A DNA stretch of 38,427 nt, taken from Lachnospiraceae bacterium (GTDB lineage: Bacteria > Bacillota > Clostridia > Lachnospirales > Lachnospiraceae). The stretch lies in contig JAAUZL010000023.1 of assembly GCA_014804615.1 (NCBI GenBank), forward strand, positions 109,737 to 148,163. Direction: 5' to 3'. Position numbers and translations under genes: made by a program. How positions within the stretch are numbered: position 1 is the stretch's first letter; every line of letters starts with the position of its first letter. Below the pieces are notes generated by a model that ran no database searches, was not told the DNA's origin, and saw nothing but the letters and a program-made list of their open reading frames with translations. Shown piece by piece: positions 13,076-38,364 of this stretch.

Positions 13076-14521
13076 TTATCCAATCAGCCAGTCATACATT
13101 TCCTGATATTTCTTTGCCGATACATGCCAGGAGAAGTCCGCAGCCATACCTCTGTCCACGATCTTATTCCACTCCCGTTTCTTGTCATAATAGATATGCT
13201 CCGCATACCGGATCGTTCCCAGCATCTCATGAGCATTATAATTCCTGAAGCTGAAGCCTGTGCCTACGCCTTCATATTCATTGTAAGGCTGTACCGTATC
13301 CTTCAGACCGCCGGTCTCACGCACAATGGGCACCGTGCCATAGCGCAGAGACATCAACTGGCTCAAGCCGCATGGCTCGAAGAGAGAAGGCATCAGGAAT
13401 GCATCGCTGGCCGCATAGATCTTATGGGAGAGCGCATCGGAATAGTAAATGTTAGCCGACACCTTGCCGTGATACTTCCAGTCAAAGTGGCGGAACATAT
13501 TCTCATACTGCTCCTCGCCCGTGCCAAGCACCACGATCTGCACATTATCCTGACACAACTCATCCATTATGTAGGCGATCAAGTCGAAGCCCTTCTGTCC
13601 TGTCAATCTCGACACGATACCGATCATCATGGCCTTATCATCCTGATTTAAGCCCAGCTCCTCCTGCAGAGCGCGCTTGTTCTTGATCTTTTCCTTGCGG
13701 AAATTGACTGCATTATACCTGAAATCTATGTTCTTATCCGTCTCCGGATTAAAGTCCTCATAATCAATACCGTTCACGATACCGCGCAGATCCCTCGTTC
13801 TGGCACAGAGCAGTCCGTTCAGGCCCTCGCCGTAAAACGCTGTTTTGATCTCCTCCGCATAGGTATCGCTGACTGTGGTGATCGCGTCCGCGTAGACCAG
13901 ACCGCCCTTTAAGAGGTTGGCATCCTTATAGGCCTCCAGCTTATCGGAAGTAAAGAAATATCCCGGCAGACCGGTGATCTCCTTGACATCCTTCACATTC
14001 CATTTCCCCTGGAACTTCAGGTTATGGATCGTCATAACGGTCTTAATGCCCCGATAGAATTCTCCGCCCTGGAAACGCTCCTTCAGATACACCGGAATCA
14101 AACCTGTCTGCCAGTCATGGCAGTGGATCAGATCCGGCCTGAAATCGATCACAGGCAGAATACACAGTGCTGCTTTAGAGAAAAAGGCATACTTCTCGAT
14201 CTCAAACAAAGCGTTGTCACTGTAAGGCTGAAACCCATTAAAATAACTCTCGTTATCAATAAAATAATACTTCACGCCATCGACTTCCGCTTCCAGAATA
14301 CCCACATACTCCTCTTTCCAGTGGAAATCCATGTAAAAATGCGCCTTGTAGGTGAGTTTATCCTTCATTTCCTGTTTCATACAGGTATATTTCGGAAGTA
14401 TCACCCGCACGTCAAAATACTCTTTGTCAATACATTTGGGCAGGGAACCGACCACATCCGCCAATCCCCCCGTTTTGATAAAAGGTACCCCCTCCGACGC
14501 AACAAATAATATTTTCTTCAT
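13076..14521 (-). CDS. glgA: Glycogen synthase (ADP-glucose type, GT5)
   Basis: A 481-residue GT5 glycosyltransferase that extends alpha-1,4-glucan from ADP-glucose. The N-terminal KTGGLADVVGSLPK motif (nucleotide binding), the segment HCHDWQTGLIPVYL, and the C-terminal MPSLFEPCGLSQLMSLRYGTVPIVRETGGLKDTV motif are all intact. The ATG at 14521 has GGAGGG six bases upstream; an in-frame start 27 bases earlier lacks a ribosome site. No other glycogen genes are nearby, so this is a stand-alone glgA, co-directional with the flippase gene five bases downstream. A promoter candidate lies at 14580-14608. Confidence 0.95.
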   Translation of the reverse strand: MKKILFVASEGVPFIKTGGLADVVGSLPKCIDKEYFDVRVILPKYTCMKQEMKDKLTYKAHFYMDFHWKEEYVGILEAEVDGVKYYFIDNESYFNGFQPYSDNALFEIEKYAFFSKAALCILPVIDFRPDLIHCHDWQTGLIPVYLKERFQGGEFYRGIKTVMTIHNLKFQGKWNVKDVKEITGLPGYFFTSDKLEAYKDANLLKGGLVYADAITTVSDTYAEEIKTAFYGEGLNGLLCARTRDLRGIVNGIDYEDFNPETDKNIDFRYNAVNFRKEKIKNKRALQEELGLNQDDKAMMIGIVSRLTGQKGFDLIAYIMDELCQDNVQIVVLGTGEEQYENMFRHFDWKYHGKVSANIYYSDALSHKIYAASDAFLMPSLFEPCGLSQLMSLRYGTVPIVRETGGLKDTVQPYNEYEGVGTGFSFRNYNAHEMLGTIRYAEHIYYDKKREWNKIVDRGMAADFSWHVSAKKYQEMYDWLIG

Positions 14522-14579
14522 AACAACCCTCCAACCGTAGCTCGTCATTCTTTGACAGGAGTAACACAGATTCTCCTAA

Positions 14580-14648: not shown

Positions 14649-15164
14649 TTACCGCCGATACTGGAGTCGGATCTTGTCCGCGATCAAAGCAATAAACTCC
14701 GAATTCGTAGGCTTACCCTTCCCCGTATTGATGGTATAGCCAAAAAGTGCGTCCAGCGTTTCCATCCTGCCTCTGGACCAGGCCACCTCAATGGCATGGC
14801 GGATGGCCCGCTCTACCCGGCTGGGCGTCGTCTGATACTTTTTCGCTATAGTGGGATAGAGGATCTTTGTGATCGACCCCAGCATCTCCACATCCTCCAC
14901 TGACATCATGATCGCTTCCCGCAGATACTGATAACCCTTGATGTGAGCGGGTACTCCGATCTCGTGGATCATATCCGTTACATCCTTCTCCAGATCCCGG
15001 CCCTCAGATTCTGTCATCTCCGTTCCTTCCGGTGTATTCTTATCCGTATCCCCGGAAGGAACGGTTATCAGGATCCGAAATTCTCTGTTTGCACTGATCA
15101 GATTATCCAGAAGCCGATAGATCTGTTCCTGATCTCTTGTAGCCGTCACATTTATTGTCTCCAT
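14649..15164 (-). CDS. Spo0A-type DNA-binding protein lacking the receiver domain
   Basis: A 171-residue protein. Residues 60-171 are a near-canonical Spo0A effector domain: [20 protein letters not shown], then [16 protein letters not shown], the recognition region [21 protein letters not shown], and [17 protein letters not shown]. Normal Spo0A (about 260-270 residues) has a CheY-like receiver first, with a phosphorylated Asp. Here residues 1-59 are a short unrelated segment ([20 protein letters not shown] and a Thr/Glu-rich linker) with no receiver motifs. The ATG has GGAGG seven bases upstream, and only 98 bases separate it from the previous gene, so no receiver is hidden in another frame. 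Full-length spo0A usually follows spoIVB; here two glycan genes intervene. It could be a phosphorylation-independent regulator or a paralogue with true spo0A elsewhere. Confidence 0.85.
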
Positions 15165-15218
15165 TTGTTTCCTCCATTTCCCCTTTTACTTCCGGCTTGA
15201 TATCCATACCACTCTCTC

Positions 15219-15224
15219 ATTATA
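15219..15224 (-). promoter_or_regulatory. Candidate -10 element of the Spo0A-like gene
   Basis: TATAAT on the minus strand, 55 bases before the ATG at 15164, inside the 98-base gap after the SGNH gene. No convincing -35 hexamer is visible at 17 bases, so this is a weak call. No 0A box (TGTCGAA) is seen in this gap. Confidence 0.3.
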
Positions 15225-15262
15225 AACAATAGTCGGGACCGGGGAAACATTTAGGCATCGCA

Positions 15263-16975
15263 TTACACATATCCGAATCCTAAGATCGTAAATTCCTTCT
15301 CCTCATCGCCCGCCGCCATCTGAATCCGGATCTCATGCCGCTTCGTCTCCTGCTCCTGCAGCAGGATCACCGGGTTACAATGGAGCCAGCCGTTGATATG
15401 GGGATCCGCCACCAGCTTCCTCTCCCCATCCACGAAAACCTCTGCCCTGCCGACTCTGACCTCCCCGGAATCCTTAAAGATAAGCAGCAAAGCCTTGCAG
15501 GACAGCTCCAGCGTAAATGCCTGCCCGACATTCTCCGCCTTCTGCCCGCAATACATCCAGTTATAAGGAAACTCCGGCGTACAGACAAGGTTCTCGTCCA
15601 TCTCCACCTCCTGCAGCTCGGTATCCGTAAAGCCAAAGCTGCCGCAGGTAACCTTTGCCCCCTCCGGCATATCCTTTTTATCAAGCAGCCTCACTCTCTC
15701 AAAGTCGGCGCCGATCACAGGTTCCGGCAGACCTTTTTCCAGGGGATCCTGCCCCGCCGCGCTTTCCTGCTTTGCCGCCTGTGTGAAGAAATAGGTCAGA
15801 CAGTCCGCCATGACAGTGTGTCCCGCGTTGGTGGGATGGAACATATCGTAAAAATACTGGTTCTTGGAAAGTACCCGGCCCTGTCCCTGTTTCAACCGAA
15901 ACTGGGGTGTCACAGCATTAAGCACGCTGACCATAGGCAGCTGATATCGCTCTCCCACCACCCCCAGACGATCCTGCAGATTCCAATCGTTGGCAAAAAC
16001 CGAGAACAAAAGTATCACCGCCGGGCGGTTTGGCAAGGTTAAAATCTTACGCACCAGACTCTCATAGCAGTTGCCTCTGGTCTCGTCCCCGTCATCGTTT
16101 ACTGCAAACTCCACCACCACGATATCAGGCGTCTCTTCGCCGTCCCGCAGGACGTCTCTCTCAAACCGGATCATGCCAAGCTCCGAGGGTGTGCCGCCCA
16201 CTCCGGCCTTGACGAAACGAATATTTTTTCCCCCGCCGCACACCCGGACAAAGTCTCTGTAGGATTTATATGCATAACACTCGCAATTTATAGGTGTCGC
16301 GCCCGCTCCCTGCGTGATGGAACCCCCTATGTAAGCAATGGTCACGGACTCTCCGTTCTGTGCCTTATTTATGGCGCGCCGCACTCTCCCGGTATCTCCC
16401 ATCTGCATGAGCGAACGGGCGATCATCTCCTGATACGCCTCAGAGGTATAATCGATCTCGGCCTCCTCATCGATCTCCGGCGCCTGATAGCCATCATTCA
16501 GGAAAAAACGAACGCTGGCAGTGGCCAAAAGCTCCGGTTTGTCAAATACAAACAACATCTGCCCCGGTTCCTTGTCATCTTCGCTCCACTGCTGCCCGGA
16601 AAGATCGATCCGGACCTCTGCACCGTCCGTACAAAGAGGGCACCGCAGCATCGTCCCGCCGCCCAGTTTATCCTTTTCTCCGTACATCTGAAACAGGAAC
16701 TCTACGTTCTGCGTACTGTCATCCGCCTCCACACGGATCCCGATGCTGTGCACCAACTTCCGAAATCCCGCCACATCCTGCAAAAGCGTCAGAATCTCCT
16801 CATCCGTAATATCTCCCGCCACACGGGCGCTGTTTTCCAGTCGGCCCATGTCCTCATAAATATATTGAATTCCTCTGCCATCCGGCTGCTTTGTGCCGAA
16901 GATCTCCTTCTCCCGCATGACATAGAAAAACGGTCTTTTACTCTCAGGATCCTTTGGGGCTTTCGGTCCTCCCAT
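15263..16975 (-). CDS. SGNH/GDSL hydrolase, probable carbohydrate esterase
   Basis: A 570-residue cytoplasmic-looking protein (no signal peptide). Residues 1-190 form an N-terminal beta-rich domain of unclear family. The SGNH catalytic domain follows at about 205-400: block I GGSITQG with Ser219, block II GVGGT near 259-262, block III AVNDDG with Asn293, and block V DMFHPTNAGH with Asp377 and His380. The last ~150 residues look like a jelly-roll accessory domain. Domain layout and pairing with a GH43 enzyme suggest deacetylation of plant glycans such as acetylated xylo-oligosaccharides; that substrate is inferred. AGGAGG lies eight bases before the ATG, and the gene follows the GH43 gene after 12 bases. 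Confidence 0.85.
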   Translation of the reverse strand: MGGPKAPKDPESKRPFFYVMREKEIFGTKQPDGRGIQYIYEDMGRLENSARVAGDITDEEILTLLQDVAGFRKLVHSIGIRVEADDSTQNVEFLFQMYGEKDKLGGGTMLRCPLCTDGAEVRIDLSGQQWSEDDKEPGQMLFVFDKPELLATASVRFFLNDGYQAPEIDEEAEIDYTSEAYQEMIARSLMQMGDTGRVRRAINKAQNGESVTIAYIGGSITQGAGATPINCECYAYKSYRDFVRVCGGGKNIRFVKAGVGGTPSELGMIRFERDVLRDGEETPDIVVVEFAVNDDGDETRGNCYESLVRKILTLPNRPAVILLFSVFANDWNLQDRLGVVGERYQLPMVSVLNAVTPQFRLKQGQGRVLSKNQYFYDMFHPTNAGHTVMADCLTYFFTQAAKQESAAGQDPLEKGLPEPVIGADFERVRLLDKKDMPEGAKVTCGSFGFTDTELQEVEMDENLVCTPEFPYNWMYCGQKAENVGQAFTLELSCKALLLIFKDSGEVRVGRAEVFVDGERKLVADPHINGWLHCNPVILLQEQETKRHEIRIQMAAGDEEKEFTILGFGYV

Positions 16976-16987
16976 CGCACTCTCCTC

Positions 16988-18580
16988 CTATTCTACACTG
17001 CCTTCACTGTTTATTTCACTATATGTAAGATTTTTGAAAACAACGCATGCATCCTTATGATCACCGCCTGCCGCGTACAAGCCCACGGTACATCCTACAA
17101 AGCCGCCCGCCGTCTCCGTGGAAAGGCTGCGGATATCCACGTCTTCCGCCACTTTCACCTTTCCAAAGCCGCCGGATACCTTGACCGCCGCAGTAAGTCC
17201 TCTTACCTCCAGAGACAATCCGATTTCCACTCTGTCCTCATTTGGCTGCACAGAAAGCGTTTGTCCGGCTATCCTGCGATCTATCCCCTGCTCACACAGA
17301 TACACATTGATCTGAACCGCCTGTGCCGCTTCATCTCTTATAAGGGCAAGCCGCAGATGATACTCATTGCTCTGCACAAGCGCGATTCCCGCCTCTCCCT
17401 GTCCACTGCAAGGCGGCAGACTTAAAAGCGTCTCTGCCCTGAAATGATGGTGTCTCTGCCTGAGACCTACATAGACCGAAGATGCTTTCCGTGTCAGTTC
17501 ACAGCCGCCATAAGAGAGCTTCAATCCCTCTCCGGCACACAGGCTATAGCTGTCAGAATCGGGATTTCTCAAGAACAAAAAGGCATCCCCCAGCCGCTCC
17601 ATCCCGGCAAAATCATACACCATATCCATTCGCTCCGGTTCAACGGGCTTCCGGTCTGTAAGCCCTGTCTCCACCGTGTCTGTAAGCCTGCCGATCCCGG
17701 GATTCACCACGGGCCATCCATCCTCCCAGACCACTCTGGCAAGAAAAGTTTCCCTGCCCAACGTAGTATGTCCTTCCAGGGGGCGAACTGCCAGAGCCGA
17801 CATATACCATTCGCCTGCCGGGGTCTCCACCAGATCCCCATGCCCTACGCATTGCACCGGATAATCTTTACCCAAATGCCGATGTGTCAGGATAGGATTG
17901 CAGGGATTATTCTCATAGGGTCCCCAAATACTACGGCTCCGACACACCGCTGCGGCATGTCGAAATTCCGTACCGCCCTCCGCATGAACTATGTAGTAAT
18001 AGCTGTCCTTTTTGTATAAATGAGGGCCTTCCGGCCATACCACATGGCGCATGGCGCCGTTCCACACATCCTTCGCCTCTCCCACAAGACGCATTGTTTT
18101 CAGATCCAGCTCCTGAATCCAGATAAACCAGTCCCCGTCATAGCGGCACCCCTTTGGATTCGGATGCGTACCAATATAATAGCAGGTACCGTCCTCATCA
18201 AAGAACAGACTGGGATCGATCCCGGCCGCCTCCGGCAGATAACAGGGTTCTGACCAGGGACCTGCCGGATCAGACGCCGTAACGATAAAATTTCCCCCGC
18301 CGGATACATTGGTGCATATCACATAAAAAACGCCCGCATGATACCGTATGGTGGGCGCAAACAGCCCCTCAGAATGCCCGCATCCCTGCAGGGGAAGCTG
18401 GGATGCTCTGTCCATCACATTTCCAATCTGCTCCCAGTGCGCCAGATCCCTGCTGTGCATGATGGGAATGCCCGGGAAATACGCGAAAGTGGAATTGACC
18501 AGATAGAAATCGTCTCCTACCGCACAGAGGGAAGGATCCGGATAAAAGCCCGATAAAATTGGATTTTTTGCAATTGCCAT
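16988..18580 (-). CDS. GH43 family glycoside hydrolase (beta-xylosidase/arabinofuranosidase type)
   Basis: A 530-residue GH43 enzyme. The three catalytic acids are in place: Asp15 in GFYPDPSLC, Asp122 in GIDPSLFFDED, and Glu184 in VWPEGPHLYK. The five-bladed propeller covers about 1-320; the remaining ~200 residues form the beta-sandwich usual in the xylosidase-like subfamilies, with LRQRHHHFRAETLLSLPP and GIALVQSNEYHLRLAL. There is no signal peptide, so it should act on imported oligosaccharides. The ATG at 18580 has GGGAGG nine bases upstream; the earlier in-frame TTG is unlikely. It heads a two-gene unit with the SGNH esterase, inserted between spoIVB and the Spo0A-like gene, with its own extended -10 promoter. 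Confidence 0.9.
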   Translation of the reverse strand: MAIAKNPILSGFYPDPSLCAVGDDFYLVNSTFAYFPGIPIMHSRDLAHWEQIGNVMDRASQLPLQGCGHSEGLFAPTIRYHAGVFYVICTNVSGGGNFIVTASDPAGPWSEPCYLPEAAGIDPSLFFDEDGTCYYIGTHPNPKGCRYDGDWFIWIQELDLKTMRLVGEAKDVWNGAMRHVVWPEGPHLYKKDSYYYIVHAEGGTEFRHAAAVCRSRSIWGPYENNPCNPILTHRHLGKDYPVQCVGHGDLVETPAGEWYMSALAVRPLEGHTTLGRETFLARVVWEDGWPVVNPGIGRLTDTVETGLTDRKPVEPERMDMVYDFAGMERLGDAFLFLRNPDSDSYSLCAGEGLKLSYGGCELTRKASSVYVGLRQRHHHFRAETLLSLPPCSGQGEAGIALVQSNEYHLRLALIRDEAAQAVQINVYLCEQGIDRRIAGQTLSVQPNEDRVEIGLSLEVRGLTAAVKVSGGFGKVKVAEDVDIRSLSTETAGGFVGCTVGLYAAGGDHKDACVVFKNLTYSEINSEGSVE

Positions 18581-18613
18581 GCTCGCCCGCCTCCCTTTTT
18601 CCAATCTGACTTT

Positions 18614-18645: not shown

Positions 18646-19989
18646 CTAATGTGTCAGCATCTCCTCGATAAAAATCCCGTAACCCTTGGTGGAATCATTT
18701 ACCAGCACATGGGTGACTGCTCCCGCCAGCTTGCCGTTCTGGATGATCGGGCTGCCGCTCATGCCCTGTATGATCCCTCCCGTCAGCATCAGAAGCTTTT
18801 CGTCCACCACCCGGATCACGATGCCTCTGTTAACATTCTCATGCTCCAGATCCACCTCCACGATCTCCACATCATAAAATTCCGGCTCACCCGAAACGGA
18901 GCAGATGATCTGGGCCGGTCCCAGCTCGATCTCCTGCTTTAACGCAATGGGAACAGGCTCAAAAGCGGCGCTTTCTATCAGTTCATTATCGCAGATACCG
19001 AAGATCCCTTCCGCCGTATTTTCTGTGATCTCTCCAATCACATTGTCACTGTCATACTCGATGTATCCCGTCAATTCTCCGGGCGCTCCGTTAGCGCCTC
19101 TGGTAATGCCCACGATCTCAGTCTTATAGAGGGTTCCCTCCTCCAGATTCATCAAAATGGAGGTGTCCACATCATTAATACCATGGCCCAGCGCCCCGAA
19201 CGTGCTATCTGTTCCCTCATAAGTCATGGTACCGATTCCCTGCGCATTATCTCTGATCCAGATTCCCAGCTTCCACTCCTGCATCTGATTGGCACCAGGG
19301 CTTATCATAACATCCGTTATTTCATTGTTTCGACGGATCGTAAGTATCATGTCCTCTCCCTCAGAGCTCTCCACCATACTGATAAACTGTTTTTTGTTTT
19401 CCACCGTCTCTCCATCACATTTCAAAATGTAATCTCCCTTTTGCAGCACATATTTGGCAGGCGATATGGTCTCCCCCTCGCTGCTTTCAAACTCCCCGAT
19501 TCCTACCACCAGCACACCGTCCGTCTTTACATAGATACCGATAGGAAGCCCTGAAGGGATCAGCATTTTATCCTGGATCACCTCCACATCCACATTTTTA
19601 TAGGGCAGCACGCCAAACAGTTTCAGATCCATCTGATAAGTATCGACTTCATTCGCTTTCAGCCGCACAGTATGTGCAAAATTTACATGGATACTCTCCC
19701 TGTCCTCTCCTCCTGCCAGGAGCGCTTCTTCCGCCTCTCTGTCCACTTCCGTCACGGTAGATACCGGCGTGACTTCCTCTGCGATTCGATAGATCTCTCC
19801 CGACACCGGCACCCGGAAATCAAATTCCTGCTCCACACCGGCACGTATCTTGATCTTTGACGGAATCTTCTGCCAATAGGAAAAATAAATATTGCACAAA
19901 AGTGCCGCCATTCCCAGCAAAAGCAGCGCCCACAAAAATTTCCGGTATTTTTTCTCCTGTCTCTGCGTCATATATATCGAATTGTCCAC
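18646..19989 (-). CDS. spoIVB: SpoIVB serine peptidase (S55)
   Basis: A 447-residue forespore signalling protease. A membrane anchor spans about residues 18-38, a PDZ domain lies near 145-230 (IPSGLPIGIYVKTDGVLVVG, LQKGDYILKCDGETVENKK), and the S55 peptidase domain follows, with His269 in FGALGHGINDVDT and Ser411 in IIQGMSGSPIIQNGKLAGAV. In Bacillus SpoIVB crosses into the intermembrane space and triggers pro-sigma-K processing. The start shown is a GTG with AAGGGA nine bases upstream; an ATG 18 bases later has no ribosome site. It follows recN, the conserved order, but the usual downstream full-length spo0A is displaced. Confidence 0.95.
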   Translation of the reverse strand: MDNSIYMTQRQEKKYRKFLWALLLLGMAALLCNIYFSYWQKIPSKIKIRAGVEQEFDFRVPVSGEIYRIAEEVTPVSTVTEVDREAEEALLAGGEDRESIHVNFAHTVRLKANEVDTYQMDLKLFGVLPYKNVDVEVIQDKMLIPSGLPIGIYVKTDGVLVVGIGEFESSEGETISPAKYVLQKGDYILKCDGETVENKKQFISMVESSEGEDMILTIRRNNEITDVMISPGANQMQEWKLGIWIRDNAQGIGTMTYEGTDSTFGALGHGINDVDTSILMNLEEGTLYKTEIVGITRGANGAPGELTGYIEYDSDNVIGEITENTAEGIFGICDNELIESAAFEPVPIALKQEIELGPAQIICSVSGEPEFYDVEIVEVDLEHENVNRGIVIRVVDEKLLMLTGGIIQGMSGSPIIQNGKLAGAVTHVLVNDSTKGYGIFIEEMLTH

Positions 19990-33271: not shown

Positions 33272-33979
33272 TTATTTCTCGTCTGCACTCACGGTACTGA
33301 TCACAACGGCGTCCGCACTCACCCCCGTCTTGCGAATCACAATATCCTCTATCTGTGCCCGCTGTGCCTCCGACAATTCCGCGGTGTTGACCACTACATC
33401 CACGCTGTCCCCGTCTATACTGACGATGGCATCATCAAATCCTTTGGCCTCCAAGAGAATCTCCGCCGCCGTCTCCTTCTCCGCAATGTCCGTCATGGAG
33501 ATCATGCTGCTCACAGCCTCCTGCTTCTGCGTCTCGCTGACATTGGCGTTATTGATGATCTCCAGAAGCATCTCCTTATTCTGCACTCTTGTCTGCTCCT
33601 TCTCCAGCTTCGCGCCGGAGAGAACTGTGGCTGTCTCCGCCGAAGTAAATACCGCTTCTCCCGGCACCTCATCCATCTGTTCCTCAGCCAGTGCTTGTGC
33701 CAGTTCCTCATCCACACTGCCGTTTGCCAGTGTCACATCGCTGTCCAGACTCTCGATATCGCCGGAGGCGCTCTCCATATCCTCGTCCGACAGATCTAAA
33801 AGTGCCATATAATCCGCTTCTTCGTCCGTCTGTGCCAGATTTGTCTCCACATCTCCGCTCACGCTCATAAGTTCTTCATCTGTCACCTTGGTTCCCGCAA
33901 AATTCAGGTAGCCCGCCACTGCGATCATAATAGCCAGCGCAGTGATCATCATCTGGTTCTTCTTGATCATATTTTTCAA
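33272..33979 (-). CDS. spoIIIAH: Stage III sporulation protein AH (SpoIIIAH)
   Basis: A 235-residue mother-cell channel protein. The membrane helix is MMITALAIMIAVAGYLNF (about 10-27). An acidic Asp/Ser/Ala-rich linker covers about 33-110. The YscJ/FliF-like ring-building domain follows (about 115-225), with NKEMLLEIINNANVSETQKQEA, AAEILLEAKGFDDAIVSIDGDSVDVVV and the end of a beta-strand pair. In Bacillus it binds forespore SpoIIQ. The start is a TTG with GGGGAG six bases upstream; an ATG three codons later has worse spacing. It is the last gene of the spoIIIA operon. Confidence 0.94.
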   Translation of the reverse strand: MKNMIKKNQMMITALAIMIAVAGYLNFAGTKVTDEELMSVSGDVETNLAQTDEEADYMALLDLSDEDMESASGDIESLDSDVTLANGSVDEELAQALAEEQMDEVPGEAVFTSAETATVLSGAKLEKEQTRVQNKEMLLEIINNANVSETQKQEAVSSMISMTDIAEKETAAEILLEAKGFDDAIVSIDGDSVDVVVNTAELSEAQRAQIEDIVIRKTGVSADAVVISTVSADEK

Positions 33980-33992
33980 TTTCTTCTCCCCT

Positions 33993-34607
33993 TCACTGAT
34001 TATTTGTTTTCATTTTAATTATTGCTATTCTATTCATGTCTATATCAAATAATACCTGAATCGCTTCGATTATGTCCCTGCGTACCTGCGCCTGATCCGC
34101 CCCCTGGGCGATCACCACTACGCCCTCCACACAGGGTGCCACTGTCTTGACCACCAGAGGAACATCCTGGCCCCTGTCATCCACCGTGCGGATAACACTC
34201 TGCTCCTCCCGGTTCTCCACCACATGACGGCTTCCCCCCGATGCATCCGTCTCCACAGTCTCCTGGCTCTCCAGGGCGCCGTCCTTAGCCAGTACCTGCT
34301 CCTCGGACTCCTTTAATGTAATGAGTACCCGGACTTTTCCGGCACCCTCCACAAAACGAAGGCTCTCCTCCAATTTCTCTTCCCAACCGGAGATATAATC
34401 TTTACTCCCCTCTTCGGAATAGAACGTTTGTTCGTTATTGATCATATCGCCGGAAGTGTCCGATAGATTGGACTGTGTTTTTTCTTTTTTCACCGGCAGC
34501 GAGATCACGCAAAACAGCATACCGACCAGTACCAGAATGACACACTGATCCTTTCGGAGTTTCTTTTTACCCCAAATACGCTCCAAAAAGGCTTTACCCT
34601 CTCCCAT
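33993..34607 (-). CDS. spoIIIAG: Stage III sporulation protein AG (SpoIIIAG)
   Basis: A 204-residue protein with one membrane helix (about 22-39, CVILVLVGMLFCVISLPV) and an extracytoplasmic domain that in Bacillus forms a large ring in the intermembrane space. Family segments include WEEKLEESLRFVEGAGKVRVLITLKESEEQVLAKD, VVENREEQSVI, PLVVKTVAPCVEGVVVIAQGAD and the terminal IQVLFDIDMNRIAIIKMK. It overlaps the spoIIIAF stop by 14 bases and is followed by spoIIIAH after 13 bases. Confidence 0.94.
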   Translation of the reverse strand: MGEGKAFLERIWGKKKLRKDQCVILVLVGMLFCVISLPVKKEKTQSNLSDTSGDMINNEQTFYSEEGSKDYISGWEEKLEESLRFVEGAGKVRVLITLKESEEQVLAKDGALESQETVETDASGGSRHVVENREEQSVIRTVDDRGQDVPLVVKTVAPCVEGVVVIAQGADQAQVRRDIIEAIQVLFDIDMNRIAIIKMKTNNQ

Positions 34608-35166
34608 CCACTCTCACCTCCACGTTCTCCTCAGGGATTCCCAGAAGTCCGGCAAATCTCTGCCGATAAACCTGCGCTTCCTCCGTATTTTCCGATTCCT
34701 CCGTCTCACCAATGGTGATCTCCTCCACCACGATCAAACTTTTTTCTTCTTTTTGTCCGATCCAGACCTCCACGAAAGGCATCTGCTCTTCCTTTATCAG
34801 TGACTGTCCTTCTCCCAAACGCACAACGACCCTTTTCACATAACGGTTCTCCTCCGCTAATTCCTGATTTAACAACTTCTGAATCTCTTCCTCCATCCGC
34901 GCAGCCGCCGCATCTGTCGCACTCGTTATCTGCGCCGTTTCCGGAAGATCCGGCATCTCTGTCAATTCAGCCATCTCTGCAAAGATCTGCCCCGGCTCCT
35001 CCCACCTTCCTCCGGACATCTGTAAAAACGGTTTTAAAAAAAGAAGCAATATTATAACACCCGATATTGATTTAATATATTTCTCATACCGGATGCCCGG
35101 CGCAAAGTGTACCACAGCCTGCGCCGCGATCATAAATATTCCGATCTCCCGTATGGTCCTTATCAT
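34594..35166 (-). CDS. spoIIIAF: Stage III sporulation protein AF (SpoIIIAF)
   Basis: A 190-residue protein with two N-terminal hydrophobic helices (about 8-24 and 34-48; the second is SGVIILLLFLKPFLQM) and a C-terminal extracytoplasmic domain with a YscJ/FliF-like ring motif, ending QRFAGLLGIPEENVEVRVDGRG. The linker is rich in Glu. GGAG lies seven bases before the ATG. It follows spoIIIAE after 13 bases and overlaps spoIIIAG by 14. Confidence 0.92.
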   Translation of the reverse strand: MIRTIREIGIFMIAAQAVVHFAPGIRYEKYIKSISGVIILLLFLKPFLQMSGGRWEEPGQIFAEMAELTEMPDLPETAQITSATDAAAARMEEEIQKLLNQELAEENRYVKRVVVRLGEGQSLIKEEQMPFVEVWIGQKEEKSLIVVEEITIGETEESENTEEAQVYRQRFAGLLGIPEENVEVRVDGRG

Positions 35167-35179
35167 ATTGTCTCTCCTT

Positions 35180-36250
35180 TCAGCGCATAGCCTGTCCTGT
35201 TGAACAGGTAATAATGGCCACCTGGATCACAAACATCCCCACAGAAGTCATTGCCATTTTCAAAAGCATCAGGCTTCCCTCCCCCATCCGGCTCACACAG
35301 TTCGTCAGTCGTTTATCGCTTATGATGCCGATCAGAGCAGCGCTCAACTTTATCACACAAGCCGTCAGGACGATCTTTAAAATCGGAATGGCGCAGAGCG
35401 CCATAAGCGCCAGCGTCATATAAAGTCCCAGGCTGTTTTTCACCAGAACGGCAGAGCCCATCACCATCTCAAACATTCCCTTTGTCAGATCTCCCAGCCC
35501 CGGCATGGCGGAGACTGCCCGCTTCACGGCCATATACTGCAGCGAATCAATAACAGGCGATATCATCGATTGTAAGAGACTGAATCCGGTGATCAGCCAA
35601 AGAGACGCCTTGACACTTCCTCCGACCGCCTTCTGTACGAGTTCCAGGAGCAAAGCAAGCTTTTCCCCCGTCCAGACCCCATTGATCACCGTCAAAAGGA
35701 CATAGACATGAACAAAAGGCAATAAAAGCGTAAGATATCCCCACTCGATCAGATAGACCACAACCAACAGAAGCTGATAACCGACCGAAGCCGAAGCTGC
35801 GCCGGAGGCGCTTCCCACAGCTATGATATAGGTGGGAATATATAACCGGATAAACGTTGTCACATTCTGCAAAATCTCCCGCACCGTTCCCGCTGTATCC
35901 GTAAAAAACTTTAACAGCACTGCGATCAGCAGCAGATAAATGAAATAGAACGCCAGATCTGAAACCTGATGGTCCTGAAACAGATCTGCAAAGTTTGAAA
36001 AAAGAGCCGCGGCTACGCCCAGCACCAAAATGGTGAAGAACAAAGTCCGGAACTCCCCTCGCTGAAACAAAACGGCTCCGGACAAACCTCCCGCCAGTTT
36101 CTTTACCGCCTCCCACAGATTGCCCTGCATGATGTCCGCAAACACAGCCTCACCGTCAAAGGAAAATCCGGGAAACAGTCTGTCAAAATCCCTTGTAATA
36201 GCGCCCATATCCATCTGCTCCCACAAAAGCGCACTTTCCTGAGTTCCCAT
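35180..36250 (-). CDS. spoIIIAE: Stage III sporulation protein AE (SpoIIIAE)
   Basis: A 356-residue polytopic membrane protein with about seven or eight hydrophobic helices from residue 67 on. The family signature region is MISPVIDSLQYMAVKRAVSAMPGLGDLTKGM with VKNSLGL soon after, and the C-terminus ends VIQVAIITCSTG. Bacillus SpoIIIAE is about 400 residues and begins with a signal peptide; here the ATG at 36250, with GGAGG six bases upstream, gives a soluble N-terminus (MGTQESALLWEQMDMGAITR) without one. Only 42 bases separate it from spoIIIAD, so no signal peptide is hidden upstream. It probably forms the membrane core of the channel. Confidence 0.93.
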   Translation of the reverse strand: MGTQESALLWEQMDMGAITRDFDRLFPGFSFDGEAVFADIMQGNLWEAVKKLAGGLSGAVLFQRGEFRTLFFTILVLGVAAALFSNFADLFQDHQVSDLAFYFIYLLLIAVLLKFFTDTAGTVREILQNVTTFIRLYIPTYIIAVGSASGAASASVGYQLLLVVVYLIEWGYLTLLLPFVHVYVLLTVINGVWTGEKLALLLELVQKAVGGSVKASLWLITGFSLLQSMISPVIDSLQYMAVKRAVSAMPGLGDLTKGMFEMVMGSAVLVKNSLGLYMTLALMALCAIPILKIVLTACVIKLSAALIGIISDKRLTNCVSRMGEGSLMLLKMAMTSVGMFVIQVAIITCSTGQAMR

Positions 36251-36292
36251 TGCTTTCCTCCTCTACACGAAGCACTCTTTCTGCCATCCATG

Positions 36293-36679
36293 TTAGCCTG
36301 CGATTCCCTGTATGCTCTCTATCAGGGAGAGCAGTACGGGCATCCCCATGGAAAGAATATAGAGCTTGCCCAACATCTCCACCTGTCCTGCCACGCCGCC
36401 ATAGCCCGCATCCTTACAGATTCCGGCACAAAATTCACAGGCATAGGTGGCCCCCACCGCTTTTAACAGCAGCGCCAGATAACTGTAATTCTCCTGCAGA
36501 TATCCCCGAAGCTGGTCCATGCCGGATAGGATCTGCATAAAATAACGAGTGATATACTCTAGGATAACCAGACAGACTGCCAGGGTCACATAAACGCCGT
36601 ATTCCGCTTTATAATTCTTGAGCGAAACGGCAAACAATACCCCCACAACACCGATCATACCGGCTCTCACCATATCCAT
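36293..36679 (-). CDS. spoIIIAD: Stage III sporulation protein AD (SpoIIIAD)
   Basis: A 128-residue SpoIIIAC/AD family membrane protein with three or four hydrophobic helices (about 6-22, 27-50, 65-80 and 103-122). Family residues include VGVLFAVSLKNYKAEYGVYVTLAVC and CEFCAGICKDAGYGGVAGQVEMLGKLYILSMGMPVL. It follows spoIIIAC after 12 bases. In the channel it probably works with SpoIIIAC and SpoIIIAE in the mother-cell membrane. Confidence 0.94.
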   Translation of the reverse strand: MDMVRAGMIGVVGVLFAVSLKNYKAEYGVYVTLAVCLVILEYITRYFMQILSGMDQLRGYLQENYSYLALLLKAVGATYACEFCAGICKDAGYGGVAGQVEMLGKLYILSMGMPVLLSLIESIQGIAG

Positions 36680-36691
36680 TCTCTTTCCCTC

Positions 36692-36886
36692 TCACCATTC
36701 AAACAGATTTTGCATCATCACAAACAAGTCATATATATACGGTACGATCCAAGTTAAAACAAGAATTAACCCGGCAAGGCTGATCAGAAAGGCATGATCC
36801 TCCCTTCCGCTATGCTTTAAAACTTGATTTAATATTGTGACCAAGATGCCGACTGCCGCTATCTTGAAAATCAGACTTACGCTCAT
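36692..36886 (-). CDS. spoIIIAC: Stage III sporulation protein AC (SpoIIIAC)
   Basis: A 64-residue membrane protein with two hydrophobic helices (about 4-23 and 32-56), separated by LKHSGREDHAF, the conserved polar loop of the family. Normal length for SpoIIIAC. GGAGG lies four bases before the ATG. It is paralogous to SpoIIIAD next door. Confidence 0.94.
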   Translation of the reverse strand: MSVSLIFKIAAVGILVTILNQVLKHSGREDHAFLISLAGLILVLTWIVPYIYDLFVMMQNLFEW

Positions 36887-36908
36887 CTGTCCTCCCTGTT
36901 TATTCCCA

Positions 36909-37427
36909 TCACAGCAGAAGGATCGCCAACAGCAATCCCGTCAGAATACTGACGCTGCGTATCATTTTCGATCTGTTCTCGTAGGCTCCCTCGGCCCGCC
37001 TGCATCTCTCCGCCAGAAACTCCCCGGCCTGTCCGATCCTGTCGGCCTGCCTTTCCCCCTCCTGAAAGCAGAGATTATCAGGAAGAGCCAACACAGTCTC
37101 CCTCTCCTCCTCCCGCAAGGGCAATTTGTCCAGACAGTCGCGAAACTCTTCCTTCCATATCCGGGGAATACCGATACCCTCTCCCTCCATACTCCGCTCA
37201 TAAATACGTTGAAAGCAGGCGCTGTAGCTCTCTTCTTTGACCATCGTCAAAAGCAGGCAGATTTCCGGCAGGGTATGTTTCCCATAGGCAATCTCGCTCT
37301 GCATCCGGTCAAAGATCTGCATCAGCAGGTGCAGATGCCTGATCCGGTCCCGCTCCTGCCCGATCTTACCATTCCCCCACCCGATACATCCGGCTAAAAT
37401 AAAGAAAATCCCCGCCAGCCTATACAT
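36909..37427 (-). CDS. spoIIIAB: Stage III sporulation protein AB (SpoIIIAB)
   Basis: A 172-residue protein with an N-terminal helix (about 4-20), a cytoplasmic helical domain similar to type II/IV secretion GspF proteins (RHLHLLMQIFDRMQSEIAYGKHTLPEI is the family hallmark), and a C-terminal hydrophobic helix (VSILTGLLLAILLL). It overlaps the spoIIIAA stop by eight bases. It is thought to pair with the SpoIIIAA ATPase. Confidence 0.94.
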   Translation of the reverse strand: MYRLAGIFFILAGCIGWGNGKIGQERDRIRHLHLLMQIFDRMQSEIAYGKHTLPEICLLLTMVKEESYSACFQRIYERSMEGEGIGIPRIWKEEFRDCLDKLPLREEERETVLALPDNLCFQEGERQADRIGQAGEFLAERCRRAEGAYENRSKMIRSVSILTGLLLAILLL

Positions 37428-38364
37428 GGTTTCCCTCCCCGTCGTAGATTCCCGCTATACGGCATACCCCCTGTGCTCTGTCAAGCACCACATATCTTTC
37501 AAACAAACCGTCCTCTGTTACATAACGCATGTATTTTTTATTCCAAACCTCCTCCAGAGACCCACCGTGGATGGTGGCAAGCAGTCTGCAGCCACATCCG
37601 CTCGCCATCCGCAAAGCCTGTATGTCCTCAAGACTTCCCAATTCATCCACCGCCAGTACCTGGGGCGCCATAGCACGGATCAGCATCATCATGCCCTCAT
37701 TTTTCGGGCAGCCGTCCAGTACATCGGTGCGACATCCCACATCGTTCTGGGCAACTCCCAGATAACTGCCTGCTATCTCGGAACGTTCATCCACCACACT
37801 GACATTTACCCCCGCTCCATATTTGGTGCCGTCAGAAATACTTCTGATCATATCGCGCAGCATAGTGGTCTTACCGCAGCCCGGCGGGGAGATCAACAGG
37901 GTATTGCGTACCTGTCCCACACTGTTATACAGATGGGGAAGCAGTGGCTCCGCCACACCTATTTTTTCATGGGCGATACGAATATTTAAATAACGTATGT
38001 ATTTTAAATTACGTACACGATTATTGTCCTCCAGGATCACCTGCCCTGCCAGTCCCACTCTATGACCGCCCTGTACGGTCAGAAATCCCTGCCGTATCTC
38101 ATCCGCATAGGCATAAATAGAATATTGACACAAATGCGCTAGGATCTCCTCCAATTCTCCGACCGTGGGCCTTGCCGCACACTCCTGCCTGTCCACGATC
38201 TTTCCGTGCGGATCCAGAAACCGTTCCCGGTCATTCACTAATATAGACAGGGGCATATCTGCGCGAAGCCGGATCTCCTGCAGCTTCTCCGCCGCTTTGG
38301 CAGCTTCCTGCCACCTGTACCTGCTCTTTTCCGGAAACATACGAAGAATTTCTTCTCCCTGCAT
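37420..38364 (-). CDS. spoIIIAA: Stage III sporulation protein AA ATPase (SpoIIIAA)
   Basis: A 314-residue ATPase related to secretion-system ATPases. Walker A is PPGCGKTT at about 160-167, and Walker B is VLAVDELG near 233-240. The segment YSIYAYADEIRQGFLTVQGGHRVGLAG and the SVVDERSEIAGSYLG motif are specific to SpoIIIAA. It is the first gene of the spoIIIA operon and powers the mother-cell channel. The ATG has GGAGG eight bases upstream, and a sigma-E-like promoter lies just before it. Confidence 0.96.
   Translation of the reverse strand: MQGEEILRMFPEKSRYRWQEAAKAAEKLQEIRLRADMPLSILVNDRERFLDPHGKIVDRQECAARPTVGELEEILAHLCQYSIYAYADEIRQGFLTVQGGHRVGLAGQVILEDNNRVRNLKYIRYLNIRIAHEKIGVAEPLLPHLYNSVGQVRNTLLISPPGCGKTTMLRDMIRSISDGTKYGAGVNVSVVDERSEIAGSYLGVAQNDVGCRTDVLDGCPKNEGMMMLIRAMAPQVLAVDELGSLEDIQALRMASGCGCRLLATIHGGSLEEVWNKKYMRYVTEDGLFERYVVLDRAQGVCRIAGIYDGEGNHV

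Follow-up and report, generated by a model that had tools for sequence, protein, structure and literature searches.

The window, by which we mean the whole stretch of 38,427 nucleotides analysed here, carries a short spo0A gene, hereafter form A, together with the neighbours and internal features collected in Table 1. An earlier note on this DNA had described a 171-residue gene with a ribosome site and a Spo0A DNA-binding domain, and had regarded it as a receiver-less Spo0A in the locus normally held by spo0A. Both descriptions hold. The open reading frame, the GGAGG and the Spo0A_C match (E 4.9e-47) are all present, and in a wider set of form-A loci (the 80 best among at least 199 confirmed matches, overlapping in part with a set of 43 loci also used below) recN and spoIVB lie upstream in the same orientation in 16/80, argR being also upstream in 15/80; in the other 64 spoIVB was not found within the stretch examined, and some of these stretches are short. 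The comparison of gene order in relatives, which the note had proposed, further placed glgA within ~1.5 kb of form A in all of these best 80 loci (inverted in one). In relatives including Kineothrix alysoides, form A sits between recN-spoIVB and glgA, and it thus lies downstream of recN-spoIVB, at the spo0A locus. The note had also stated that full-length spo0A commonly follows spoIVB in spore-formers. In several relatives spoIVB immediately precedes form A, at a distance of ~200 bases or less; in the window, GH43 and GDSL/SGNH hydrolase genes intervene.

Table 1. Features of the window around the short spo0A gene
Feature	Positions	Strand	Basis
glgA (glycogen synthase)	13076..14548	(-)	gene order and profile matches
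form A, receiver-less spo0A, 171 aa, ATG start	14649..15164	(-)	open reading frame, profile and structure matches
Spo0A_C DNA-binding domain, residues 62-165	14670..14981	(-)	profile and structure match
variable linker, residues 38-55	15000..15053	(-)	sequence comparison, dN/dS
receiver remnant, residues 1-32 (beta1-alpha1-start of beta2)	15069..15164	(-)	profile alignment, dN/dS
ribosome-binding site GGAGG of form A	15171..15175	(-)	six bases upstream of ATG, read from sequence
putative form-A promoter element GCGATR-N31-TATAAT, -10 hexamer 15219-15224	15219..15261	(-)	pattern search
GDSL/SGNH hydrolase gene between spoIVB and spo0A	15263..16975	(-)	profile matches
GH43 glycosidase gene between spoIVB and spo0A	16988..18604	(-)	profile matches
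spoIVB, upstream of spo0A in gene order	18646..19989	(-)	TIGR02860, 370 bits (cut-off 305)
spoIIIA operon (AA, AB, AD, AE, AG, AH by profile)	33272..38364	(-)	profile matches; AB, AD, AE, AG below curated cut-offs

The DNA-binding domain of form A matches Pfam Spo0A_C (PF08769) with 158.7 bits against a cut-off of 25, and the solved structures that match the protein are those of Spo0A DNA-binding domains (1fc3 and 1lq1). Form A also passes the NCBIfam model spore_0_A (TIGR02875; 205.4 bits, cut-off 200), over model positions 140-259 only. No Response_reg match was found in the form-A protein by profile search at E up to 1, and the protein has no receiver with the phospho-acceptor aspartate by which a Spo0A response regulator is recognised. 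A DUF5956 match (0.0021) was under that family's cut-off and was dismissed.

Collecting homologues of the N-terminus, as the earlier note suggested, gave a profile of 42 form-A N-termini (L042 omitted), which was compared with a profile of 27 Spo0A receivers (L053 dropped). Residues 1-32 of form A align with residues 1-32 of the receiver without a gap (E 1.9e-6, score 38.9), the highest score reached by 100 column shuffles being 20.8. These residues correspond to the first strand, the first helix and the beginning of the second strand of the receiver. Both aspartates of the acidic pair are invariant in 17 full-length receivers; in form A the second, Asp11, is kept in 42/42 proteins (L042 omitted) and the first, at residue 10, is replaced in 42/42, mostly by Arg or Lys. 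The first 59 residues, which the note had described as not a CheY-like receiver, are thus not unrelated to one: the first 32 of them are its start, in register. The possible new element for dimerisation or sensing proposed in the note is instead inherited from the receiver, and the note's own counter-possibility, that in relatives this N-terminus is a degenerate receiver, came close: it is receiver-derived, but the core has been deleted and has not degenerated.

The nature of the deletion is revealed by a transitional form, L042 (genome G290). Its residues 1-30 match receiver residues 1-30 (1e-11) and the stretch that follows matches receiver columns 104-128 (1.1e-7), ~73 middle columns, the phospho-acceptor among them, being missing. 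Because L042 joins the start of the receiver to its end with the phospho-acceptor part gone, the sequences indicate that form A is spo0A itself after an internal deletion within the receiver, the far junction being resolved in L042 and not in form A proper. The L042 junction and the in-register remnant together describe an internal loss within the receiver beside an intact output domain, as in the sad67 allele considered below. Since that part of the receiver is missing, form A cannot be phosphorylated at the usual aspartate, as the note had supposed; the dimer face of the Spo0A receiver is presumably among the parts lost.

Within the genus, residues 2-36 have a median dN/dS of 0.06, the DNA-binding domain one of 0.008 and the linker one of 0.66 (106, 137 and 70 pairs respectively, of 210 possible among 21 sequences); over all form A, spanning 19 genera, the corresponding medians were 0.12, 0.014 and 0.76 (261, 326 and 111 pairs, of 861 possible among 42 sequences). 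Saturated pairs, linkers of unequal length and L042 were left out, and the ratios are rough, dS being near saturation. By this measure the receiver remnant is under purifying selection, and its low dN/dS supports the view that it still does something. The recognition helix of form A (22/22) is identical to that of full-length Spo0A (17 parsed of 19), save for one position that varies alike in both.

A Spo0A_C search of the source genome (G000, 98.76% complete) returned two loci, form A and, on contig 24 (L002), a second receiver-less protein, form B; their stop-to-stop frames of 178 and 166 aa leave no room for a receiver. Full-length Spo0A was found neither in this genome nor in the 36 same-genus genomes searched. 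Form A is carried by 34 of these and form B also by 34, and the longest Spo0A_C frame among the 36 measures 208 aa. In G109, a further genome of the genus, a Spo0A_C frame of 220 aa has its start placed inside the frame. A second, receiver-bearing Spo0A, for which the note advised a genome search, is thus not present in the source genome, and the note's option of a dedicated paralogue competing with a full-length protein is not supported. In the order outside Lachnospiraceae, a Spo0A_C protein is found in 20/24 genomes, and the best one lies in a frame of at least 262 aa in 20/20. Within Lachnospiraceae, 171/250 genomes have Spo0A_C, and in at least 21 of these 171, the source genome included, the frame holding the best match measures 178-223 aa; G197, whose partial match sits in a frame of 108 aa, was left out of this count. 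Twenty short-form genomes from 20 genera were re-searched: all have a second short Spo0A_C protein, and none has a strong full-length Spo0A. Among the matches listed, form-A records include Kineothrix alysoides KNHs209, Lachnospiraceae bacterium A4 and bacterium D16-50, as well as several MAGs titled Acetatifactor; in eight genomes searched from among those behind these loci, no Spo0A_C frame exceeded 222 aa.

In the tree of the DNA-binding domain, based on a short alignment, the protein of the window falls among the form-A sequences and close to full-length Spo0A. Support for form A as a single group is 28/75, and two full-length rows sit on very long branches. As this tree is too short to resolve much, we relied on SpoIVA. 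A tree of SpoIVA from 21 form-A genomes (the transitional G290 included) and 19 full-length genomes, without an outgroup, was built with 40 of the 41 SpoIVA sequences of the two groups (G295 was omitted; G234 has none). The 21 form-A genomes form one clade with a branch support of 100/99, and a single change accounts for the distribution of the two Spo0A forms on the tree. Because all form-A genomes fall on one side, the receiver deletion would most simply trace to a single event in the common ancestor of this Lachnospiraceae clade, which has retained its sporulation genes.

Upstream of form A, a single base separates the promoter-like element of the window from the stop codon of the preceding gene. 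The pattern GCG[AG]T[AGT]-N24-36-TATAAT was found upstream of 106/123 form-A genes (43 plus the best 80 of 199) vs 2/28 full-length genes, counts that are not probabilities since related sequences are not independent. In form A the element nearly always measures 43-44 bases overall, and shuffles give 0.32/123; this control covers form A and not the 28 full-length regions, of which 7 come from outside the family and whose starts were set by pattern, that of L053 wrongly. As two full-length genes (L037 and L051) carry the element, it may partly predate the deletion. The exact 0A box TGTCGAA lies within 300 bases upstream of 16/28 full-length spo0A genes, nine of the boxes being at -98 to -107. 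It is found upstream of form A at 6/43 loci and at 9 of the best 80 of 199 (2.8 in shuffles), where it is not clustered at -98 to -107. The box common upstream of full-length spo0A is thus mostly gone from form A.

Sporulation promoters were inspected in the same way. Upstream of spoIIA, the exact box occurs in 1/17 form-A and 1/17 full-length loci, not above shuffles (17 of 22 form-A loci had a usable start, some doubtful; the 17 full-length loci come from 20 genomes), and upstream of spoIIE in 2/15 form-A and 0/15 full-length loci parsed (21 and 18 given). These spoIIA and spoIIE upstream sequences do not show direct control of sporulation promoters by form A. The window as a whole contains 3 copies of TGTCGAA vs 4.6 expected. 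The promoter pattern gave 23 matches in 5 genomes vs 13 for a reversed control, and we make no claim on a regulon of the element; one of the four matches in the source genome is the spo0A promoter. Two close intergenic copies of GCGATGGATTACACTTTAC...TATAAT, which resemble the form-A promoter, were seen in K. alysoides (L285 1501-1544 and 1939-1982).

Form A is orthologous to Spo0A (TIGR02875; PF00072 receiver plus PF08769) by its locus and its DNA-binding domain, with a like recognition helix, and differs from it by the loss of the phospho-acceptor, the first 32 receiver residues alone being left, and by a changed promoter. A laboratory allele of B. subtilis, Spo0A-sad67, combines an altered receiver with an intact output domain, as does form A; we take sad67 to be an internal receiver deletion, presumably a smaller one than that of form A. 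In contrast to sad67, form A is natural, clade-wide and under selection. The isolated DNA-binding domain of Spo0A also resembles form A in having an intact output domain. The sad67 protein is described as constitutively active in B. subtilis (PMC6391423, PMC4689505).

We consider form A, with a probability of roughly 0.7, to be a natural phosphorylation-independent Spo0A, internally deleted once, which is predicted to bind 0A boxes by default and to be set by its amount. Lost with the deletion would be the phospho-acceptor together with the switch residues and the receiver's dimer face; the first strand and helix, the linker and an intact DNA-binding domain remain. Because the inhibitory, phosphate-sensing part of the receiver is gone, as in sad67, form A most likely binds 0A boxes by default, and its activity would then depend on how much is made from a promoter that mostly lacks the usual 0A box. 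The retained beta1-alpha1 piece probably either folds back onto the protein or provides a docking site for a partner, and form B is likely to act as a modulator of the same targets, these two steps being the ones in which we place least confidence. In response regulators, the surface to which kinases and phosphatases dock includes beta1-alpha1. A bolder proposal, which we advance only tentatively, is that sporulation in a gut clade of Lachnospiraceae begins without phosphorylation of Spo0A, with beta1-alpha1 as a handle for a partner and form B as a counter-regulator; the partner would hold or release form A through this phosphate-free handle. A constitutive regulator need not mean uncontrolled sporulation, since constitutively active Spo0A alone is reported to give inefficient sporulation in rich conditions, a further signal or condition being needed (PMC4689505).

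Form A could also have been reassigned to other targets, such as stationary-phase, glycogen or envelope genes, with form B or another regulator starting sporulation. Form B (L002 1474-1956 (-); L074-L083, L172-L176) is, like the other Spo0A_C-only paralogues of Lachnospiraceae, receiver-less as form A is. It differs from form A in that it forms a separate group in the DNA-binding-domain tree (87/78, short alignment), no receiver remnant is seen in it and its recognition helix is changed. In that tree form A does not group with form B, as a free-standing paralogue of the form B kind would be expected to. Upstream of form B, the promoter element was found in 0/16 and the exact 0A box in 2/16 regions. 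The company of the two proteins speaks for reassignment: form B-grade matches (at least 120 bits) are present in 21/22 form-A genomes (109 bits in G225), the 20 full-length genomes have a sole second Spo0A_C match above 115 bits (G170, 122 bits), and the nine second paralogues of full-length genomes that were put in the tree fall outside form B. So does the proximity of glgA at all of the best 80 of 199 loci, together with much diverged receiver-plus-Spo0A_C proteins found beside forms A and B in three of the 22 form-A genomes (G143, G246 and G132). However, form A retains the spo0A locus and the DNA-reading helix of full-length Spo0A, whereas three further positions are changed in the helix of form B, including one that is changed in all 18 sequences, and we regard reassignment as unlikely.

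The diverged proteins (L346, L347, L348 and L349, two of them in G132) were identified among five weak long-frame Spo0A_C matches examined in form-A genomes (G062, G143, G246 and two in G132). Their Spo0A_C parts score 38-84 bits, and their receiver parts 14-35 bits with the Spo0A receiver profile vs 135-139 bits in three full-length proteins from outside the family. They could carry a phosphate input in G143, G246 and G132; no such match was found in the source genome or in 18 other form-A genomes of the 22. The match in G062 (L345 392-1123 (+)) is the third Spo0A_C protein of that genome; it lacks a full receiver, no receiver match covers its start, and by eye the stretch that precedes its DNA-binding domain looks like the N-terminus of form A. 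Clustered triplets of Spo0A_C-only proteins, in frames of 115-134 aa, were seen in G314 (C69:13595-15259) and G311 (C2:41703-45128).

If, on the other hand, the clade were losing sporulation, form A might be a leftover that does little. The markers of the programme were compared between 22 form-A genomes (the transitional G290 and Kineothrix included) and two groups hand-picked from the family survey, 20 full-length genomes and 20 genomes without Spo0A_C. SpoIIE (E <1e-40) was found in 21/22, 20/20 and 1/20 of them respectively, SpoIIAB in 22/22, 20/20 and 1/20, and SpoIVA in 21/22, 20/20 and 1/20. In 3/22 form-A genomes one marker is absent or broken (G246 lacks SpoIIE, G234 lacks SpoIVA and SpoIVA of G225 contains a stop), and SpoIIE is shortened, its matches starting at ~410-435 of 764 model positions and running to the model's end, which would suit decay. 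So would a survey in which Lachnospiraceae MAGs, Acetatifactor included, are predicted to be non-sporulating (PMC12536801); the same source cites the description of K. alysoides as a reference on sporulation among some strains of the order. Decay nonetheless appears improbable to us, as the markers persist in 21-22 of 22 form-A genomes vs 1/20 of those without Spo0A_C, and the dN/dS of the DNA-binding domain and the remnant is low across 19 genera.

Three further observations concern these markers. SpoIIE of the form-A clade (G000 C22:16791-17822) lies in frames of 388-495 aa in 21 genomes, with the first half of the model absent and a length from the chosen start of 392-420 residues in the 15 parsed; SpoIIE frames of ~470-504 aa also occur in 8/20 full-length-Spo0A genomes. 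In G076, G185 and G131 the match to SpoIIAB breaks in two near model residue 57, which suggests an insertion in the anti-sigma factor. G093 has SpoIIE, SpoIIAB and SpoIVA and no Spo0A_C match.

A receiver split off from spo0A and acting in trans on form A would have a ready source, as the source genome contains 80 receiver-domain matches, free-standing receivers among them. With a profile built from 17 Lachnospiraceae Spo0A receivers, the best match reached 74 bits in the source genome and 67-84 bits in 8/8 form-A genomes. In 4/4 full-length genomes the best match scored 205-211 bits and the second-best ~71-78 bits, so that nothing in these eight form-A genomes stands above ordinary receivers, which score equally in full-length genomes. 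Since the best matches of form-A genomes are at the level of ordinary receivers, the Spo0A receiver is, by these scores, gone rather than split off, and we give an action in trans very little credence. An assembly or sequencing gap removing the receiver, the artefact against which the earlier note had warned, is refuted as practically inconceivable by the recurrence of the short gene in 34/36 same-genus genomes and at 80 further glgA-adjacent loci (the best 80 of 199).

In Clostridia, sporulation is described as starting via Spo0A phosphorylated at a conserved receiver aspartate (review PMC11210211). A clade that keeps the programme with the phosphate input cut from spo0A would be a natural experiment on the need for a phosphate switch. 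Form A may also affect spo0A calls in gut surveys, in which the presence of spo0A is taken as a sporulation marker (PMC8340488, PMC11536998); gut Lachnospiraceae genomes whose sporulation genes are relatively complete are reported to include some that "had lost spo0A" (PMC11170972). The accessible parts of PMC6136694, PMC11210211, PMC3533761, PMC8340488, PMC11536998 and PMC11170972 make no mention of a natural receiver-less Spo0A, and none came up among the titles and abstract openings returned by a full-text literature search, whose scope mostly excludes subscription papers. Elsewhere in the window, positions 129-1176 are probably low-complexity repeats: long frames overlap there on both strands, and short units recur.
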